Source: Chloroflexaceae bacterium (lineage in GTDB: Bacteria; Chloroflexota; Chloroflexia; Chloroflexales; Chloroflexaceae). From it: 64,000 bases of DNA. Every line of letters starts with the position of its first letter. The stretch's first letter is position 1. The stretch is from positions 14,006-78,005 of the forward strand of contig JAAUTZ010000005.1 in assembly GCA_012031225.1 (NCBI GenBank), written 5' to 3'. Position numbers and translations under genes: made by a program. Below the pieces are notes generated by a model that searched no databases, was not told where the DNA came from, and worked only from the letters and a program-made list of their open reading frames with translations. Positions 13,937 to 25,287 of this stretch are shown piece after piece.

Positions 13937-14538
13937 TGACAATCTGCACGACCCAGCCGGAACACATCCCGCAATTGGTGGTTCATCAAAAGGAGTGCTT
14001 CCCGATGCTCTCCTCCGCAGAGTGGTACGACCAAGCCAAATTCGAGGCGCACCTGCGCGTATTCTCAGCGGGTCAGCATGTCGCGCTTGATGGGGAGCGG
14101 GTAGTGGGGCAGAGTAGCGCCTTTCGCGCCCGCACTGAGCAGGTGATGGTGCAGCACCGCTTCAACGATATTATGGGGTACGGCTACTTCACCAATCACG
14201 ATCCGCAGGGTGAATGGCTGTATGGTGCAGACATGAGCGTGCATGCCCAGTATCGGCGGCGCGGGATTGCCACTGCGCTGTACAATACGCGCAAAGTCCT
14301 GATCCGTGCGCTGGGCATGCGCGGCATGGTGGCAGGCGGGATGATTCCGGGCTACGCTCATTACCACACGCAGCTGCGCGTAGAAGACTATGTGGCGCAG
14401 GTGGTGGCGGGCACACTCAGCGATCCAACCCTCACACCGCAGTTGCGGCAGGGCTTCACCGTGCGCGATATTCTCTACCACCACTTCGACGGCGAGGGTC
14501 CGTTGGTGCATGCCACGCTGCTGGTGTGGGAGGCGTAG
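13933..14538 (+). CDS. GNAT family N-acetyltransferase
   Basis: A 201-residue GNAT-fold protein, with the acetyl-CoA pyrophosphate-binding motif A visible as YRRRGIATALYNTRK after beta-4 (GADMSVHAQ). The substrate is not evident. A tail of about 50 residues (after GYAHYHTQLRVEDYVAQVV) extends beyond the usual GNAT core; this 'large GNAT' arrangement also occurs next to aminotransferases or amidohydrolases in other genomes. Its ATG at 13933 overlaps the gabT stop by 4 bases, with a second possible ATG at 13936. The pairing suggests acetylation of an amine or amino acid connected with GabT, but this is inference. Confidence 0.85.
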   Translation: MMTICTTQPEHIPQLVVHQKECFPMLSSAEWYDQAKFEAHLRVFSAGQHVALDGERVVGQSSAFRARTEQVMVQHRFNDIMGYGYFTNHDPQGEWLYGADMSVHAQYRRRGIATALYNTRKVLIRALGMRGMVAGGMIPGYAHYHTQLRVEDYVAQVVAGTLSDPTLTPQLRQGFTVRDILYHHFDGEGPLVHATLLVWEA

Positions 14539-14547
14539 GGGCTACGG

Positions 14548-15738
14548 ATGAGTATGTCGCAAAAGGAACTCGACGCTCTGATTGTCGGCGGGGAGTCGGA
14601 TCGGGTGGAGTTCAAAGCAATTGCTAAAAACAATGCGGATACGATCAAACAGACGATCTGTGCGTTTGCGAATGATCTGCCCAAGCATCAACAGGTAGGC
14701 GTGATTGTGATCGGGCTGCACGATGATAGTCGCTGTGCCGATACTGACATTACGGATGAGATGCTAACAACACTGGCTCATTGGCAACGTGATATTCTGC
14801 CGTTTCCTGATCTGGATGTCCAGAAGCGCACGATGCATGGATGTTCAGTGGCAATCGTTACGGTGCATCCACACCCGAATCCGCCCCTGCGCTACAATGG
14901 GCGGGTGTATATTCGGGTTGGGCCAACGACACGGGTGGCGGATAGCCAACAAGAACAACGCTTGATTGAGAAGCGGCGGGCTGGCAACAAACCGTTCGAT
15001 CTGCATCCTGTCTATGGCGCGACACGCGACGACCTGCATCAACGTGCATTTCATGAATATCTTGCACTCGCCATTAAGCCCGATGTCCTTGCCCAGAATA
15101 GCCGATCTTATGAGCAGAAGCTGGCATCGCTGCGCTTCATTATGAGCATTGACGACCCCACCCCCACCGTGCTTGGGATCATCACCATTGGCACCAACCC
15201 TAGCCTCTATATCCCCGGTAGCTATATCCAGTTTATTCGCTATGATGGCATCACTATCCTTGATCCCATTCAAGATCAGCAGGAGTTGCGGGGCACGCTG
15301 CTGGAGATTTTGCGGCAACTCGATGAAAAACTGAGCATTAATGTGAGGACCGCATTACGGGTTGGCTCCCAACCTACGGCACAGGCAGCCCCTGATTATC
15401 CCATCGTTGCACTTCAGCAAATTGCCCGCAATGCAATTTTGCATCGCAATTATGAAAGCTCGAACGCGCCAGTCTATATGCGCTGGTTTGCTGATCGGGT
15501 TGAAATCACTAGCCCCGGCGGACTCTTCGGTAATGTCACCCGCGCCAACTTTGGCACCGGGGTGACTGATTACCGCAACCCCAACATTGCTGAGGTGATG
15601 AAAAATCTCGGCTACGTGGAACGCTTTGGCTTCGGGCTTGCCAAAGCTCAGATGGAACTCCAAGCGAACGGGAACCCGCCCCTCGCATTCGACATCCAAG
15701 ATACGACCATTACGGTTGTTCTGCGGAGAACATCATGA
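14548..15738 (+). CDS. AlbA_2 DNA-binding/HATPase protein, partner of a ParA-like ATPase
   Basis: The 396-residue protein starts with an AlbA_2 (Schlafen-type AlbA) domain: ESDRVEFKAIAKNNADTIKQTICAFAN and VIVIGLHDDSR, then YNGRVYIRVGPTTRVA. The middle part is the RecG-like linker found in this family. Its C-terminus is a HATPase_c_4 module with an N-box (QIARNAILHRNY), an ITSPGGLFG motif and GYVERFGFGLAKA. Members are usually annotated as putative transcriptional regulators, and some occur in defense loci. ATG 14548 is 9 bases after the GNAT stop. Base composition is noticeably lower in GC than the flanking biosynthetic genes. Its stop overlaps the ParA-like gene by 4 bases, so the two are coupled. 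Confidence 0.85.
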   Translation: MSMSQKELDALIVGGESDRVEFKAIAKNNADTIKQTICAFANDLPKHQQVGVIVIGLHDDSRCADTDITDEMLTTLAHWQRDILPFPDLDVQKRTMHGCSVAIVTVHPHPNPPLRYNGRVYIRVGPTTRVADSQQEQRLIEKRRAGNKPFDLHPVYGATRDDLHQRAFHEYLALAIKPDVLAQNSRSYEQKLASLRFIMSIDDPTPTVLGIITIGTNPSLYIPGSYIQFIRYDGITILDPIQDQQELRGTLLEILRQLDEKLSINVRTALRVGSQPTAQAAPDYPIVALQQIARNAILHRNYESSNAPVYMRWFADRVEITSPGGLFGNVTRANFGTGVTDYRNPNIAEVMKNLGYVERFGFGLAKAQMELQANGNPPLAFDIQDTTITVVLRRTS

Positions 15739-16769
15739 GTATTCCGGTCTACACCTTCTTCAACAACAAGGGTGGAGTCGGCAAAACCACCCTGCTCTAC
15801 AATCTGGCGTGGATGTACCGCGAGCTTGGGTTGCAGGTGCTTATGGCCGACCTCGACCCACAGGCAAACCTGACGGCGGCGTTCCTGAGTGATGAGCGGC
15901 TCAACGAGATTTTCACCGCTCCGAGCAACCACCCACCCCAAACCATCTACGAGGCGGTACAGCCACTGGTGGACGGAACCGGTGATATTGTCATCCCACA
16001 TGTCCAGAGCCACCCGACAGTCGAAGCCCTTGCGCTGGTGGCAGGCGATTTGCGCCTCGCGCAGTTTGAGGATAGCCTGTCGGAGACATGGCCCAAATGC
16101 TTGAGTGGCGATGCGCGAGCATTACGGATTACTTCCGCCTTCTGGCGGGTCATTCAAGGAGCAGCCCTAGAACATGCCGCCGATCTGATTCTGGTGGACG
16201 TTGGCCCAAATCTCGGCGCGATCAACCGTGCCGCCCTGATCGCCACGAATTACGTGATCACGCCGCTTGCCCCCGACCTCTTCTCCGTGATGGGTCTCCG
16301 CAATCTTGGACCACGGCTCGCTAGCTGGCGCAAAGAGTGGCAGAAACGGCTCGATGAAAACGTACCATCCCCTTTCACATTGCCATCCGGCGAGATGCAG
16401 CCGATAGGATATGTGGTGTTGCAATATATCAAACGGCTGGATCGTCCGGTCAAAGCCTATGAACACTGGATCAAGCAGATCCCGCATGTCTATCGTGACG
16501 CAGTATTGAACCAGACGACTGACCAACCAATCACCGTTGAAAATGATGAGTACGCCCTGTCGTTGTTGAAGCACTATGCTTCGCTGATGCCGATGGCACA
16601 GGAAGCCCGCAAGCCGGTGTTTCTGCTGAAGCCCGCAGATGGTGCGATTGGCTCACACCTGTACGCGGTGCAACAAAGCTATCGCGAGTTTGAAAGCCTT
16701 GCCCGTGCAATTGCCAGCAAGTCCCGGCTTGCCCTACCCACACCACTAAGCGTTGAAGAGGCCCTATGA
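15735..16769 (+). CDS. ParA/MinD-like P-loop ATPase
   Basis: The 344-residue ATPase has the deviant Walker A motif NKGGVGKTTLLYNLAW (KGGVGKTT) at the N-terminus, the switch I region MADLDPQANLTAAFL and a Walker B-like ILVDVGPNLGAINRAAL. The C-terminal half, with VVLQYIKRLDRPVKAYEHWIKQIP, is longer than in chromosomal ParA and does not suggest a plasmid partition role; no ParB gene or parS-like repeats are seen nearby. GGAG lies 6 bases before ATG 15735. It is fused by ATGA overlaps to the AlbA_2/HATPase gene before it and to the polyketide synthase gene after it. Possible roles include gene regulation or a defense module; no function is established. Confidence 0.85.
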   Translation: MSIPVYTFFNNKGGVGKTTLLYNLAWMYRELGLQVLMADLDPQANLTAAFLSDERLNEIFTAPSNHPPQTIYEAVQPLVDGTGDIVIPHVQSHPTVEALALVAGDLRLAQFEDSLSETWPKCLSGDARALRITSAFWRVIQGAALEHAADLILVDVGPNLGAINRAALIATNYVITPLAPDLFSVMGLRNLGPRLASWRKEWQKRLDENVPSPFTLPSGEMQPIGYVVLQYIKRLDRPVKAYEHWIKQIPHVYRDAVLNQTTDQPITVENDEYALSLLKHYASLMPMAQEARKPVFLLKPADGAIGSHLYAVQQSYREFESLARAIASKSRLALPTPLSVEEAL

Positions 16770-17911
16770 CCCAGCACCCCGCCATCCTTGCCCTCGGCTG
16801 TGCGCTCCCCGCCTACCGCGTCCATCAAGCCGATGTGGGGCAGTGGATGAACCAATCGCTAGGCCACCCGCCCACCCTCAGCCGCTGGATTACGCGCCTG
16901 TATGAACGCTCCGGCATTGATACGCGCTACACCTGCCTGCCCGATAGCCTGCACGATCCCGCCCAGTCGCGCTTTGCGCCCGGCACGCCGCTCGCGCAAG
17001 TCGCCACCACTGCCGAACGGATGGCGATCTACGAGCGCGAAGCCGTGCCGATTGGCGTCGCTGCCGCGCGCAATGCGCTTGCTGCGCTTGCTCCGCCTGC
17101 CGCCACGCCGGCTGATCTCGCGGCGGCAGCAGCCACGATTACGCACCTGATCGCGGTGAGTTGTACCGGCTTCTTTGCACCTAGCCTCGATCAGGCGATA
17201 GCGCGTGCGCTGGGCCTGCCGCCCACCGCCGAGCGCACCCTGATCGGCTTTATGGGCTGTGCCGCCGCCTTTAATGCGCTGCGCCTCGCCAACCAGATTG
17301 TGCAAGCCCAGCCCAACGCACGAGTACTGATTGTGAGTGTTGAGCTGTGCTCGCTGCATATTCAGCCCGGCACGCGCAAGATTGACGTGATTGTCGCCTC
17401 GCTGTTTTGCGATGGCGCGGGAGCCTGTATTGTGGGGCTGCCGGATGCCGCCAGCAACGGCGATTACTTTGCGCTACGTGGTTTTCACACCGCCCTGACC
17501 CCCGATACGAATGATTTTATGGTGTGGCAGATTGGCAATCACGGCTTTGTGCTGAACCTTGCCCCGCAGATCCCAGCCCAGCTAGCCCTCGCCGCACCCG
17601 CCGCACTGCATACGCTGATGGGTGCTACGCGCCCGCAGTTCTGGGCGATCCATCCCGGTGGGCGTAGCATCATCGAGAGCCTGAGCACGGCATTTGATTT
17701 GCAGCCCAGCGATACGGACGTGAGCCGCACGATCCTGCGCGAGATTGGCAACATCTCTTCGGCCACAATCCTGCATGTGCTGCACACCTTCCAGCAACGG
17801 ATGCGAGCCACCGTCACCACGCCGCAGTCTGGTGTGGCGATGGCATTTGGGCCCGGCTTGGTGACGGAGATGGCCCATCTTGAGTATCAGCCTCCAGCTA
17901 GCCCTACCTAG
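16766..17911 (+). CDS. Type III polyketide synthase (chalcone/stilbene synthase superfamily)
   Basis: This 381-residue iterative ketosynthase retains the Cys-His-Asn catalytic triad: Cys133 in VSCTGFFAPS, His296 in WAIHPGGRS and Asn329 in GNISSAT. Type III synthases condense malonyl-CoA onto an acyl-CoA starter. Together with the following methyltransferase and flavoprotein, the arrangement mirrors bacterial phenolic-lipid loci such as srsABC or bpsA/bpsB, which make methylated alkylresorcinols and alkylquinones. ATG 16766 overlaps the stop of the ParA-like gene by 4 bases; there is no separate ribosome site of note, so translation probably depends on the upstream gene. Confidence 0.93.
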   Translation: MTQHPAILALGCALPAYRVHQADVGQWMNQSLGHPPTLSRWITRLYERSGIDTRYTCLPDSLHDPAQSRFAPGTPLAQVATTAERMAIYEREAVPIGVAAARNALAALAPPAATPADLAAAAATITHLIAVSCTGFFAPSLDQAIARALGLPPTAERTLIGFMGCAAAFNALRLANQIVQAQPNARVLIVSVELCSLHIQPGTRKIDVIVASLFCDGAGACIVGLPDAASNGDYFALRGFHTALTPDTNDFMVWQIGNHGFVLNLAPQIPAQLALAAPAALHTLMGATRPQFWAIHPGGRSIIESLSTAFDLQPSDTDVSRTILREIGNISSATILHVLHTFQQRMRATVTTPQSGVAMAFGPGLVTEMAHLEYQPPASPT

Positions 17912-17927
17912 CCCATAAGGGAGCCGT

Positions 17928-18626
17928 ATGCTGCCCGATCTGCGCCAGCGGAGCACCGCCGCCGAATTGATGGATGACCGCCAGATTGCAGGCGTGGAGC
18001 TGTTCATTGCCCTGCGCGAATTGCGCTTCATCAACACCGCCCTGTTCGGCGCACTGCCTACGCTCGAAGGCGTAGCGCGGCTGTGGCATGCCGCCGGACA
18101 GCCGCCCACGCTGCATCTGCTGGATGTGGGCGCAGGCTCCGGCGAAACTAGCCGCTTGCTGCTGCGCTGGGCCGCGTGGCGTGGGATCGGCTTGCGGATT
18201 ACGTTGCTGGATATTCACCCGCTGACGTGTGCTGTCGCTGCCGCCGATTTTGCTGGCGAGCCGCGTATCACCGTGCAGCAGGGCGATCTCTATGCGTTGC
18301 CTGCCCACGCCGCCGATATTGTCACGGCATCGCTGGTGCTGCACCACTTCAGCCCGCCCGATGTGCCCACCGTGCTACGGGCAATGCGACGGGCGGCCCG
18401 GCTGGGCGTAGTGGTCAATGATCTCCACCGCCACCCATTAGCGTGGCTCGGTATTGTGGCTTTGACGCGCCTATTCTCGCGCAACCGTATGATCCGCCAC
18501 GATGCGCCGCTCTCGGTGGCACGCGGCTTTCGGGCGGCTGATCTGGAGCCGATGCGCCGCGATCCGGCCTTGGCCCACCTCCGCTATCACTGGCGACCAT
18601 TGTTCCGTTACCTCATGATCCTCTAG
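17928..18626 (+). CDS. Class I SAM-dependent methyltransferase
   Basis: The 232-residue protein has motif I LLDVGAGSGETSRLLL (residues about 64-79) and a post-I acidic residue in ITLLDIHPLT, then a motif II-like LPAHAADIVTASLVLHHF. The long C-terminal segment with basic and hydrophobic residues resembles UbiE-like and other polyketide O-/C-methyltransferases. RBS AAGGGAG precedes ATG 17928. Its position between a type III polyketide synthase and an FAD oxidoreductase points to methylation of the ring of a phenolic lipid; the methyl acceptor atom cannot be told. In srs loci the corresponding enzyme is of another fold, so this is a functional analogue rather than an orthologue. Confidence 0.88.
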   Translation: MLPDLRQRSTAAELMDDRQIAGVELFIALRELRFINTALFGALPTLEGVARLWHAAGQPPTLHLLDVGAGSGETSRLLLRWAAWRGIGLRITLLDIHPLTCAVAAADFAGEPRITVQQGDLYALPAHAADIVTASLVLHHFSPPDVPTVLRAMRRAARLGVVVNDLHRHPLAWLGIVALTRLFSRNRMIRHDAPLSVARGFRAADLEPMRRDPALAHLRYHWRPLFRYLMIL

Positions 18627-18639
18627 CAAGGAGTAGCGC

Positions 18640-19809
18640 ATGGGCAGTTACGACATTGCGATTATCGGGGCGGGCTTGGCCGGCAGCAGTGCTGCCGCTG
18701 CGCTGGCCCAGCGCGGGTGGCGGGTAGCCCTCATCGAGCGGCGCACGCTGCCGCAACACCGTGTTTGTGGCGAGTTTCTCTCGCCCGAAGCCCAACACAG
18801 CCTGCGTGCATTGGGGCTATACGCAACGGTTGCCGCGCTGCACCCGGCCCCGATGCGCCACGCCACGCTGGTTTCGGCACGCGGCACGCGCCTGCATGTA
18901 GATCTGCCGGATGCGGCGTGGGGCATCAGCCGCTACGATCTCGATCTGGCACTGGCACAGGGCGCGGTGCAAGCGGGGGCAACCCTCCTACAGGGCGCAA
19001 CCGTGACGGATATGGCAATAGCACCGACCCACGCCACGATCACCTACCGCATGCCACAGGGCACACACACGCTGCATGCCCGCACGGCGATCATTGCCGC
19101 CGGACGCAATCCGCACGCCGTGCTGCGTCCACGCCTGCCTGATCCGCAGGCAGGGCACCGCCCGCAGTATGTGGGGGTGAAGGCGCACTATACGGGGGTG
19201 CGGATGCCGGCCCACGTCGAACTGTACCTCTTTGAGGGTGGCTACACGGGCGTAGGGCGCGTGGCTAGCAGCGCGGGCGAGGTGGTCAATGTTTCACTGC
19301 TAGCAACCCGCGCTGCGTTTCAGCGGGCTGGCGCAGATCCGTTGGCGATGCTACAGGCAACTGCCGCGTGGAATCCGGCACTGGCAGAGCGGCTGGCGGG
19401 CGGCACCCTACTGGCTGATACGCTGGTTGCGGTGGCGCAGGTGGATACAGGGCGACCGGGTGTGGCGTGGGATCAGGTGGCGCGGCTGGGCGATGCGGCC
19501 ACAATGATTCCGCCCCTGTGCGGCGATGGCATGGCGATGGCATTGCGCTCGGCTGAACTATGTGTGCCCTTGGCCGATGGGTTTCTGCGCGGCACGCTCA
19601 CCCGTGAGCAGTGGCAGGCGGGCTACACGCAGGCATGGCGGCGCAGCTTTGCGCGGGCATTGTGGGTGGGGCGCCGCTTGCAGAGCCTGCTGGCTACGCC
19701 CTACCTGAGCGATGTGCTGCTGCACACCGGCGCACAGCTACCGCCGTTGGCGCGGCTGTTTGTGCATGCCACGCGCAGCCGCGAGGTGGCAGTCGCGGGG
19801 GGCAGCTGA
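18640..19809 (+). CDS. FAD-dependent oxidoreductase (geranylgeranyl reductase/hydroxylase-like)
   Basis: A 389-residue flavoprotein with an N-terminal dinucleotide-binding fingerprint, YDIAIIGAGLAGSSAAAALAQRGWRVALIERR, and the following CGEFLSPEA, where the RVCGEF pattern is typical of the geranylgeranyl-reductase-like group. The second FAD motif, ARLGDAATMIPPLCGDGMAMALRSAE (GD motif), is near residue 285. Enzymes of this group reduce isoprenoid chains or hydroxylate aromatic rings. In this setting a hydroxylase that turns a methylated resorcinol into a quinol is the likely role (inference). ATG 18640 follows AAGGAG by about 9 bases. It ends the run, 46 bases ahead of the heptad array at 19855. 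Confidence 0.9.
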   Translation: MGSYDIAIIGAGLAGSSAAAALAQRGWRVALIERRTLPQHRVCGEFLSPEAQHSLRALGLYATVAALHPAPMRHATLVSARGTRLHVDLPDAAWGISRYDLDLALAQGAVQAGATLLQGATVTDMAIAPTHATITYRMPQGTHTLHARTAIIAAGRNPHAVLRPRLPDPQAGHRPQYVGVKAHYTGVRMPAHVELYLFEGGYTGVGRVASSAGEVVNVSLLATRAAFQRAGADPLAMLQATAAWNPALAERLAGGTLLADTLVAVAQVDTGRPGVAWDQVARLGDAATMIPPLCGDGMAMALRSAELCVPLADGFLRGTLTREQWQAGYTQAWRRSFARALWVGRRLQSLLATPYLSDVLLHTGAQLPPLARLFVHATRSREVAVAGGS

Positions 19810-21412: not shown

Positions 21413-22075
21413 ATGAAACAGTTTTTTCGTCCTTACGCTAATCTGATCGCCTTGATTAGCGTGTTCGTTGTATTGTATGCGGTAGCGGGTTTTCTATGGG
21501 GCGGGCTAGTCCTTGATCGCGCCAACTGGACAAGACGGGTGAACTTGCCCGTGGAGCAGCCGATTGCCTTTAGCCACCAACTGCATGCAAATTCACTGGG
21601 CATGGATTGCCAATACTGCCATGCCTCCGCCGGTATCGTTGCATATTCCAACATCCCCCCCTCGGACACCTGTGTGACGTGCCACCACGAAGTCAAGCGC
21701 AACAGTGCGTTGCTTGAGCCGCTCTGGGAAAGTGTCAACAATGATACGCCAATTCCGTGGATAAAAGTTCACGATCTGGCAGACTTTGTTTACTTTAACC
21801 ACGCGGTTCACGTCAATGGGGGCTTCGGCTGTACGACGTGTCACGGGCAGGTGAATGAGATGCCTGTGGTGTGGAAAGTTCACGATATGACGATGGCGTG
21901 GTGTTTGGATTGTCACCGCAACCCGGAACAGTACATCCGCCCGGCCGATCAAGTCTGGAACATGGAATACGAATACCCATCGAATGCCGAACAAGCCGCG
22001 CTTGGCGCACAGCTCATCCGTGAGCAAGGGATTGACAAGGAAGTTCTGACAAATTGTGCGATTTGCCATAGATAG
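21413..22075 (+). CDS. actA: Alternative complex III, pentaheme cytochrome c subunit ActA
   Basis: This 220-residue protein has one N-terminal membrane anchor (residues about 11-31) and five CxxCH heme-binding motifs at residues 66-70, 87-91, 140-144, 164-168 and 215-219; the last lies one residue from the C-terminus. A single anchor followed by five hemes is the hallmark of ActA, which passes electrons from the quinol-oxidising part of alternative complex III to the periplasm-side acceptors. The start ATG 21413 lies behind AAGGGAAGCGAGG. It is the first gene of the act operon and is followed 12 bases later by actB. Confidence 0.95.
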   Translation: MKQFFRPYANLIALISVFVVLYAVAGFLWGGLVLDRANWTRRVNLPVEQPIAFSHQLHANSLGMDCQYCHASAGIVAYSNIPPSDTCVTCHHEVKRNSALLEPLWESVNNDTPIPWIKVHDLADFVYFNHAVHVNGGFGCTTCHGQVNEMPVVWKVHDMTMAWCLDCHRNPEQYIRPADQVWNMEYEYPSNAEQAALGAQLIREQGIDKEVLTNCAICHR

Positions 22076-22086
22076 GTGCAACTAGA

Positions 22087-25000
22087 ATGCTACACAAAAC
22101 CATTCTCCCAGCCGGCTCCGATGCCACTCACAACCAATCCGGCATCATTGAGCTGACCGAAGGTTCACCTGCACCGCGCCTATCTCCGCAGGAACAACTC
22201 CGCGACTTTCAAGAGCGGATGGAACTGCTGCGCGGTAAGCAGGGTAAAGCGTATTGGCGCGGGCTAGAGGAGCTAGCCGATACGCCCCAATTTGATGAGG
22301 TGCTGCAACGCGAGTTTCCGCGTGGCGCAGCGGAGTGGCTGGACCCGATCAGCCGCCGCAATTTCCTCAAGCTGATGGGCGCATCGTTGGCACTGGCGGG
22401 GGTCACAGCCTGTACGCGCCAAGCCGATGAGTACATCCTCCCCTACACCAATGCACCGGTCGGCTTGCTGCCCGGCGTGCCCGCCTATTATGCGACGGCG
22501 ATGCCGCTCGGTGGCTTGACCACAGGCTTGCTGGCCAAGAGTGTGATGAGCCGCCCGATCAAGCTCGAAGGCAACCCCAAGCACCCCGCTAGTTTGGGGG
22601 CAACGGATCTGCTGGCGCAGGCTTCGATCTTGACCTTCTACGATCCCGAACGCTCGCAGGTTGTGTTCAATGGGAGCAACCAAAGCACATGGGCCAACTT
22701 CGTGACGAATATCGGCCCACAGATGGAGCAGATCAAAGCGGTCAGTGGTACGGGGCTAGCCTTCCTCACCGAAGCCACCTCATCGCCGACGTTTGCCGCG
22801 CTGATGGAACGCTTGCTGGTGGATGTGCCCAACGCGACGTGGTATCAGTATGAGCCACTGGCCCGTGACAATGCCTTCCGCGCATCGGAGCTGGCCTTTG
22901 GGCAGCAGGTGCTGCCGAAGTATGACTTTACCAAAGCCGATGTGGTGCTCTCCCTCGATGCCGACTTCCTCAATGGCGGCGTGGCGTGGGTGCGCTATGC
23001 CCACGATTATGCCACACGGCGGCGCATTTGGGAGGGCGACCTGAGCCGCCTGTATGTGATCGAGGCGACCCCTTCTGCAACCGGCACAATGGCGGACCAC
23101 CGCATCACTGCGCGGCCTTCTGAAGTGGAAGCAATGGCGCGGGCGATTGCCCAGCAACTTGGTGTGAACGTGCCCCAAGCAAGCGGCTTGACCTTGACTG
23201 AGAAGCAAGAGAAAGCTGTCGCGGGGCTGGTGAGCGACCTGCAAGCCAAGCGCGGCAGTAGCATCGTGATTGCGGGCGATGAGCAACCGCCTGCGGTGCA
23301 TATGCTCGCTTTTGCAATCAACGAGGCACTCGGCAACGTAGGCTCAACGGTGGAGTATATCGAAACGCCGTTGGTGCAGCCGAGCCACAACTTCGAGGGG
23401 ATTAAAGCCCTAAGCGATGCGATGGGCAGTGGTGCGGTGCAGATGCTGGTTATCATCGGCCCGAATCCGGTCTTTACCGCCCCAGCTGACCTCGACTTCG
23501 GGGCGAAGCTGGCGCAGGTTCCGTTCTCGGTGCATATGGGCTTGTACCGCGACGAGACGGGGCAGGCGGTGACGTGGCATATTCCTGAAACGCACTTCCT
23601 TGAGACGTGGAGTGATGGGCGGGCGTATGATGGTACGACAACGATTATGCAGCCCTTGATTGCGCCGCTCTTTAATGCGCGTAGTCCGATTGAGCTACTC
23701 TCGGTGCTGCGTGGCGTGGAGCTGCCGAGCATTGACCTGATCCGGACCCAGTGGGGTGTGCCAGCGAATGATCGCTTCAACACCTTCTGGCAGACGACGC
23801 TCAATGAGGGCCTTGTGGCTGACTCGGAAGCCGAGCCGGTCAACGTGACGCTTGATTTGGGCAGCTTGCCGCCGGCCCCCACGCTCGATGCAGGGAGCTT
23901 TGAGGTGGTCTTCCGCCCCGATCCTGCGTTGTACGATGGACGCTTTGCCAACAATGGGTGGCTCCAAGAAGTGCCCAAGCCGCTGACCAAGATTACGTGG
24001 GACAATCCGGCGTTGGTCAGCCCGCGCACGGCTGTCGCCCTGCTCAACATTCCGGTTGGCGATGTTGCTAATCTCAAGCCGGAAGACTATGAGAAGCTGA
24101 GCGGTGCGAATGGGCGGATGCTCGACATCACCTATGGCGGGCGCGTGCTACGGGTGCCGCTCTGGGTTACGCCCGGCCACCCCGACAATACGATCACGCT
24201 GTATGTGGGCAGTGGCCACACGGCAATGGGCGTGATTGCGAATGGTACGGGCTTCAATACCTACAGCATCCGCACCAGCGATGCGCCGTGGTTTGGGCCG
24301 GCTACCGTCACGGCAACGGCGGAACAGTACAGGCTGGTCAGCACGCAGATGCACCACAGTATGGAAGGGCGGGCGATTGTCCGCATTGGCACGCTGGATC
24401 GCTACCGCGAGAACCCGGAATTTGTGAAAGACCTCGCCGAGTTCAACGAGAACCTCAAGAAGTCGTTGTTCACCGGTGAATGGGAATACAACGGGCATGC
24501 GTGGGGCATGACGATAGACTTGAACACCTGCACGGGCTGTAATGCCTGTTTGGTGGCCTGCCAAGCTGAGAATAACATTCCCATCGTAGGCAAGAGCGAA
24601 GTGGCGGTGGGGCGGGAGATGCACTGGATTCGCATTGACCGCTACTATGGCGGCACGCTCGAAGACCCGATGATGTACTTCCAGCCGATGGCGTGTGTTC
24701 ACTGCGAGAAAGCCCCGTGTGAGCTAGTCTGTCCAGTTGCGGCAACGGTTCACAGCCACGAGGGGATCAACTCGATGATCTACAACCGGTGTGTGGGCAC
24801 CAAGTATTGCTCGAACAACTGCCCTTACAAGGTGCGTCGCTTCAACTTCTTGCAGTATGTGGATGAGACTACGCCGAGCTTCAAGCTGATGCGGAACCCA
24901 GAAGTGACCGTTCGGTCGCGGGGGGTGATGGAGAAGTGTACCTACTGCCAGCAGCGCATCAGTACGGTGGGGCAGGCCGCGAAGGTGGAGAACCGCCCGA

Positions 25001-25287
25001 TTGCGGCGAACGAGATCAAGACGGCTTGCCAGCAAGTCTGCCCGACAGGGGCAATTGTCTTTGGCGACATCAACAATCCCGAAGATACGGTGACGGCGAT
25101 TAAGGAGCTACCGCTCAACTACGCCGTACTGGGCGAGCTGAATGTGGTGCCACGCACGACCTACCTTGGCCGCTTGATGAACTTCAATCCAGAGATCGGT
25201 GGTGACATTGGCATTACCTACTTCATTGAGCAGCATCACGGGCAGGGCGATGAGCATAGCAACGATCACGGTGAAAACAGTGAATAA
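22087..25287 (+). CDS. actB: Alternative complex III, iron-sulfur subunit ActB
   Basis: A 1066-residue fused protein. Residues 89-108 have a twin-arginine type signal (SRRNFLKLMGASLALAGVTA). The next 650 residues are a molybdopterin-oxidoreductase-like domain, which in characterised ActB lacks the cofactor. The C-terminal third is a ferredoxin-like module with four cysteine clusters: CTGCNACLVACQ (about residue 815), CVHCEKAPCELVCP (about 870), CVGTKYCSNNCP (about 902) and CTYCQQR with CQQVCPTGA (about 951-988). The structure is established for Chloroflexus and Flavobacterium complexes; the four Fe-S centres relay electrons from quinol to ActA/ActE. The ribosome site is weak, and expression probably relies on coupling with actA. 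Confidence 0.96.
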   Translation: MLHKTILPAGSDATHNQSGIIELTEGSPAPRLSPQEQLRDFQERMELLRGKQGKAYWRGLEELADTPQFDEVLQREFPRGAAEWLDPISRRNFLKLMGASLALAGVTACTRQADEYILPYTNAPVGLLPGVPAYYATAMPLGGLTTGLLAKSVMSRPIKLEGNPKHPASLGATDLLAQASILTFYDPERSQVVFNGSNQSTWANFVTNIGPQMEQIKAVSGTGLAFLTEATSSPTFAALMERLLVDVPNATWYQYEPLARDNAFRASELAFGQQVLPKYDFTKADVVLSLDADFLNGGVAWVRYAHDYATRRRIWEGDLSRLYVIEATPSATGTMADHRITARPSEVEAMARAIAQQLGVNVPQASGLTLTEKQEKAVAGLVSDLQAKRGSSIVIAGDEQPPAVHMLAFAINEALGNVGSTVEYIETPLVQPSHNFEGIKALSDAMGSGAVQMLVIIGPNPVFTAPADLDFGAKLAQVPFSVHMGLYRDETGQAVTWHIPETHFLETWSDGRAYDGTTTIMQPLIAPLFNARSPIELLSVLRGVELPSIDLIRTQWGVPANDRFNTFWQTTLNEGLVADSEAEPVNVTLDLGSLPPAPTLDAGSFEVVFRPDPALYDGRFANNGWLQEVPKPLTKITWDNPALVSPRTAVALLNIPVGDVANLKPEDYEKLSGANGRMLDITYGGRVLRVPLWVTPGHPDNTITLYVGSGHTAMGVIANGTGFNTYSIRTSDAPWFGPATVTATAEQYRLVSTQMHHSMEGRAIVRIGTLDRYRENPEFVKDLAEFNENLKKSLFTGEWEYNGHAWGMTIDLNTCTGCNACLVACQAENNIPIVGKSEVAVGREMHWIRIDRYYGGTLEDPMMYFQPMACVHCEKAPCELVCPVAATVHSHEGINSMIYNRCVGTKYCSNNCPYKVRRFNFLQYVDETTPSFKLMRNPEVTVRSRGVMEKCTYCQQRISTVGQAAKVENRPIAANEIKTACQQVCPTGAIVFGDINNPEDTVTAIKELPLNYAVLGELNVVPRTTYLGRLMNFNPEIGGDIGITYFIEQHHGQGDEHSNDHGENSE

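Follow-up and report, generated by a model that had tools for sequence, protein, structure and literature searches.

Bacterial Schlafen defence proteins combine an AlbA_2 RNase with a GHKL/minimal histidine kinase domain and a wHTH domain (PMC12839542, which cites Taboada et al. 2025 for them). The same source reports Schlafen–histidine-kinase–wHTH proteins beside BREX-related systems, does not mention ParA with them, and describes Hma as a Type-1 BREX-related system (PMC12839542). In the SIR2, HEPN and toxSAS (RelA/SpoT) two-gene abortive or toxin systems, a toxic enzyme and a controlling partner are encoded by overlapping genes. Payne et al. are said to have described Hma-embedded candidates (HEC) in a 2024 preprint, and ParA ATPases are known for the segregation of DNA, plasmids and organelles.

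We analysed a gene pair in a window of 64,000 nucleotides from a Chloroflexaceae bacterium. Like the bacterial Schlafen defence proteins, its first product, AlbA, has an AlbA_2 fold with E-E-D carboxylates plus a GHKL domain, and the family is found with BREX and BR (Hma) systems; unlike them, it lacks a wHTH and has a near-obligate ParA partner, encoded with an ATGA overlap. The features are as follows, in window positions.

14548..15738, + strand: AlbA gene, with an AlbA_2/Schlafen nuclease-fold domain and a GHKL ATPase domain; 396 aa, predicted toxic effector
14593..14937, + strand: AlbA_2/Schlafen domain, residues 16-130, containing E16, E21 and D59
15466..15723, + strand: HATPase_c_4 (GHKL) domain, residues 307-392 (Pfam)
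15735..15738, + strand: ATGA overlap of the AlbA stop and ParA start (ORF calls)
15735..16769, + strand: ParA-family ATPase gene, 344 aa, predicted switch/sensor (Pfam AAA_31)
15762..15788, + strand: deviant Walker A motif NNKGGVGKT, residues 10-18 (K12 in 78/79, K17 in 76/79)
16611..16652, + strand: family motif KPxFxLKxADGAxG near the C-terminus, residues 293-306; mostly kept among 79 ParA proteins linked to AlbA
16766..16769, + strand: ATGA overlap of ParA and the type III PKS gene (ORF calls)

The ORF coordinates bear out both ATGA overlaps and the 9-base gap that the original prediction had placed between the GNAT gene, which ends at 14538, and the AlbA start. The pair is also lower in GC, as claimed (0.526 in AlbA and 0.565 in ParA vs 0.606–0.679 in the flanking genes). 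We consider it rather probable that the two genes form a mobile conflict cassette, probably antiviral and of the abortive-infection type.

The AlbA_2 plus HATPase architecture first read from the translation was recovered by Pfam, with matches to SLFN_AlbA_2 (E = 8e-17, residues 16–130; 62.3 bits vs a gathering cut-off of 25.3) and HATPase_c_4 (E = 4e-17, residues 307–392). In order and spacing (5 and 43 residues), E16, E21 and D59 are identical to E205, E210 and D248 of SLFN13, mutation of which diminishes or abolishes RNase activity (PMC5862951). Both glutamates are kept in 74/74 family members and the aspartate in 63/74, with asparagine in its place in 8/74. The GHKL N-box, RNAxxHRxY, lies just N-terminal to the HATPase_c_4 match and its N295, H299, R300 and Y302 are invariant, as is G324 in the G-rich box of the GHKL domain; the protein ends where this domain ends. 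Foldseek placed the AlphaFold model (pLDDT 94.3) closest to 3lmm (DIP2311), then to histidine-kinase (CA domain) and SLFN11/13/14 nuclease structures. From these features we infer that AlbA is a predicted Schlafen-type RNase, and because the Schlafen RNase carboxylates are present, its AlbA_2 domain is more likely an effector than a DNA-binding sensor.

The second protein matches AAA_31/ParA in Pfam (E = 2e-26), and its model (pLDDT 94.6) is closest to 3pg5 (DIP2308), followed by Soj/ParA. DIP2308 and DIP2311, the top structural matches for ParA and AlbA, respectively, are both from Corynebacterium diphtheriae, and their locus tags, three apart, suggest from the names that they are near neighbours. 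Identity to them is low (about 20–25%), 3lmm is longer than AlbA, and the titles of the two entries report no function. Like the ParA/Soj/McdA positioning ATPases, the window ParA has a deviant Walker A, a DxDPQ motif and a ParA fold; unlike them, it has a longer C-terminal region bearing KPxFxLKxADGAxG and predicted toxic partner enzymes, with no ParB or McdB seen. The fold and Walker motifs, together with the name AlbA_2, which derives from DNA binding, would suit a remnant of DNA partition or positioning in which ParA works as in plasmid segregation and AlbA is its DNA-binding partner. This explanation is very improbable: the tree of ParA proteins splits by toxic partner enzyme, the window copy and most GTDB copies lie on long, apparently chromosomal contigs, and the window genes scanned next to the pair gave no Pfam match to ParB, in line with the earlier claim of a ParA without ParB. 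Where ParABS has a linked ParB and parS, the only conserved neighbour of the AlbA-linked ParA is AlbA.

In two genomes of the same order, G013 and G024, the Walker A lysines of ParA are lost, with YGRIGST replacing KGGVGKT in the protein partnered with AlbA (L066:7865-8875 and L067:2100-3083, respectively). Judged by this motif, these proteins have probably lost ATPase activity yet are still maintained, so it would not be required in every member.

Taking ParA relatives with 40% identity or more that are preceded by AlbA, we found the pair in 6/61 genomes of the order (the window genome G000, G001, G008, G013, G016 and G024), a count that includes G001, where the contig stops inside AlbA, and G024, where the AlbA match is partial. 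Its neighbours differ among these genomes and include an AbiLi/AriA-like ATPase with a TOPRIM-like gene, an acetoacetyl-CoA-synthetase-like gene, and carA/msrB; names given without a family match are a reading of the sequence only. A scan of GTDB genomes with a ParA alignment returned at least 567 relatives, the best 80 of which span Cyanobacteriota, Acidobacteriota, Planctomycetota, Pseudomonadota, Nitrospirota, Verrucomicrobiota, Actinomycetota, Bacteroidota, archaea and others. Although these loci were chosen by ParA alone, an AlbA match lay directly upstream in 79/80, and the gap was −4 (the ATGA overlap) in most relatives. The adjacency, recurring in this way across many phyla, exceeds chance. 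AlbA and ParA distances were correlated (r = 0.61, n = 72; maximum over 500 shuffles 0.19). Phyla were interleaved within the AlbA-linked clade of the ParA tree, as would be expected under horizontal transfer, and the window sequence fell near cyanobacterial ones.

In the window, the pair sits in a tight co-directional run, with an aminotransferase–GNAT unit upstream and type III PKS, methyltransferase and FAD enzyme genes downstream. It had been described as embedded in a biosynthetic operon. The co-directional setting is real, but the single operon is not, as the two units are independent in relatives: five have the aminotransferase–GNAT pair and six the PKS unit, in each case without the cassette. 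The cassette joins these units and sits at their junction, and in the window genome it probably shares the transcription of both. Because relatives carry either flanking unit without it, the cassette is not pathway-specific. The order of the PKS, methyltransferase and FAD enzyme genes (window 16766-19809) is kept in several relatives; we take it to be srsABC, of the phenolic-lipid type. Further downstream, at 21413-25287, a multihaem cytochrome gene precedes a QrcB/QrcC-like fusion, both resembling genes of alternative complex III. No Rfam element was matched in the window.

AlbA_2/HATPase proteins are often annotated as (transcriptional) regulators, and so tight a place in the run would fit a regulatory pair acting on the expression of the genes beside it, which in the window would be those of GABA transamination or of the phenolic-lipid PKS operon. 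We regard such a role as distinctly unlikely, since almost every genome has different neighbours (carA, pdhA/pdhB, uvrA, bioD and BREX genes among them), AlbA stops after its GHKL domain and lacks a wHTH, its Schlafen carboxylates are kept and both flanking units are found without the pair. Conservation inside the PKS operon only had been named as the finding that would make the pair pathway-specific; among the loci examined, a PKS adjoins it only in G000 and G001, and none lies beside it in any of the best 80 of the at least 567 GTDB ParA relatives. Pathway-specific regulation and plasmid partition are both poorly supported. We also dropped the idea of a "promoterless operon hitchhiker": the pair is not packed tighter than other genes of the same loci, with tight same-strand gaps in 17/76 cases upstream and 15/71 downstream vs 147/444 control gene pairs.

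Between the window genome and its congener G001, ParA is 91% and PKS 93% identical. Over the last 84 residues of AlbA (L063, G001:C157, vs window 15478-15738), identity is only 61%. A replacement of the effector allele between the two genomes is possible, although the G001 contig is cut off within AlbA and other close pairs likewise show faster divergence of AlbA than of ParA.

Long direct repeats (E below 1e-6) flanked 7/79 pairs; of placements drawn at random within these loci, 1/223 was so flanked (hypergeometric test, one-sided, p about 5e-4). A search around the window copy found none. The repeat in L110 (L110:8141-8254) duplicates the 3' end of the gene for the helicase HmaA downstream of the pair, past ParA, an apparent insertion footprint. 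Scattered over phyla, set in varied contexts and flanked by repeats in excess of random placements, the unit is apparently mobile, as the original prediction would have a defence system be. Two overlapping genes, a patchy distribution, direct-repeat footprints and toxin-like partner enzymes are also what one would look for in a selfish addiction cassette, with AlbA as toxin and ParA as antitoxin, kept by post-segregational killing. We think this unlikely, though less so than a regulatory role: recurrent nesting in Hma and BREX systems points to antiviral selection, and the presumed toxin gene comes first in the AlbA form, unlike in many type II pairs. The toxin–antitoxin and antiviral readings are not mutually exclusive.

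That nesting was seen by neighbour clustering and PADLOC scans, which placed the pair in or beside Hma/BREX-type antiviral systems in at least 9/80 loci, with Hma components nearby in 8/80 (L088, L102, L110, L116, L121, L122, L129 and L163). It lies between Hma or BREX core genes in L110, L129, L155, L088 and others, and not in the window itself. The order in L155 is BrxC–PglX–[AlbA–ParA]–PglZ–BrxL, and on the viral contig L177 PglZ comes after ParA. HmaA occurs in 46/200 Chloroflexota genomes, a rate that predicts about 0.1 adjacencies by chance over 80 loci of about 14 kb, an estimate with a base rate from one phylum and loci that are partly non-independent. In G008, which belongs to the same family as the window genome, the pair directly follows the AbiLi/AriA-like ATPase and a PDC-M38B gene. 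Enrichment in defence islands had been proposed as a sign of defence; the recurring nesting agrees with it, but most of the 80 loci lie outside recognisable defence islands, and the window neighbours are metabolic. Matched random loci of the same genomes gave single matches to several defence families. Because random loci also carried defence genes, and the alignment-mode scan gives family tallies and not rates, we limit the claim to recurring Hma/BREX nesting. Like the Hma-embedded candidates, the pair can lie as an accessory unit between genes of an Hma system; unlike them, it is mostly found outside Hma and matched no HEC model (HEC is in PADLOC-DB 2.0.0). A second AlbA_2/GHKL-like protein is encoded beside the pair in three Hma loci (L116:8477-9658, L102:3795-5435 and L163:8046-9782), which thus each carry two proteins of Schlafen type.

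Related ParA genes overlap or abut genes for SIR2 (25 loci), RelA/SpoT-domain (20) and HEPN (1) proteins, on plasmids and on viral contigs or prophages. The enzyme gene precedes parA in the AlbA form and follows it in the SIR2, RelA/SpoT and HEPN forms. AlbA-linked proteins formed one group in the ParA tree (support 100/98), the SIR2-linked and RelA/SpoT-linked groups were each strongly supported, and partner labels were far more clustered than shuffled labels. Because ParA is constant and the toxic enzyme variable across these cassettes, ParA is argued to be the switch; it is probably shared, with AlbA as an interchangeable toxic effector. The roles first proposed, an AlbA sensor and a ParA effector, are thus probably reversed, given the AlbA carboxylates and the pairing of ParA with SIR2, RelA/SpoT and HEPN enzymes. 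This sets the family apart from the SIR2, HEPN and toxSAS systems, in that the controlling partner is a ParA-family ATPase common to all effector types. We tentatively advance, with a little less than even confidence, that one ParA lineage is the common sensor or switch of two-gene cassettes with an interchangeable toxic enzyme (Schlafen RNase, SIR2 NADase, RelA/SpoT synthetase or HEPN RNase), dispersed by mobile elements and integrated into BREX and Hma systems; the window would hold the Schlafen form of these cassettes.

For the conflict cassette that we favour, AlbA would be a Schlafen-type RNase gated with ATP by its own GHKL domain, while ParA in its ATP form would dimerise and bind DNA. 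The ParA switch would keep AlbA off and free it upon infection, and freed AlbA would cut host or phage RNA, leading to growth arrest. In sister cassettes, the same ParA family would drive the other toxic enzymes (SIR2, RelA/SpoT and HEPN). If so, control of interchangeable toxic enzymes by a ParA lineage would put the ParA switch to a new use in prokaryotic immunity, and bacterial Schlafens, relatives of the human antiviral SLFN proteins, would gain a testable partner.

The AlbA–ParA module is widespread and has no dedicated PADLOC model: PADLOC-DB 2.0.0 gave only partial matches, of the GHKL region to Aga models and of the P-loop to PDC-M28B. Neither protein had a match above cut-off in NCBIfam, and in the open literature, a scope without preprints and most subscription papers, no paper joined ParA with Schlafen or SIR2 defence. 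Of the undescribed two-protein defence or regulatory unit originally predicted, the recurrent unit is real and the roles assigned within it were not upheld; the defence function is one that we infer.

Some related ParA genes occur in prophages with no recognised partner. Full-length relatives stand alone in L178-L183, L231-L241, L170 and L174, near the cI repressor in lambdoid phages, and are possibly solo exclusion genes. In L198, L205-L209, L212 and L214-L230, phage or prophage ParA is in most loci followed directly by a RelA/SpoT-domain protein, a possible toxSAS-type cassette.
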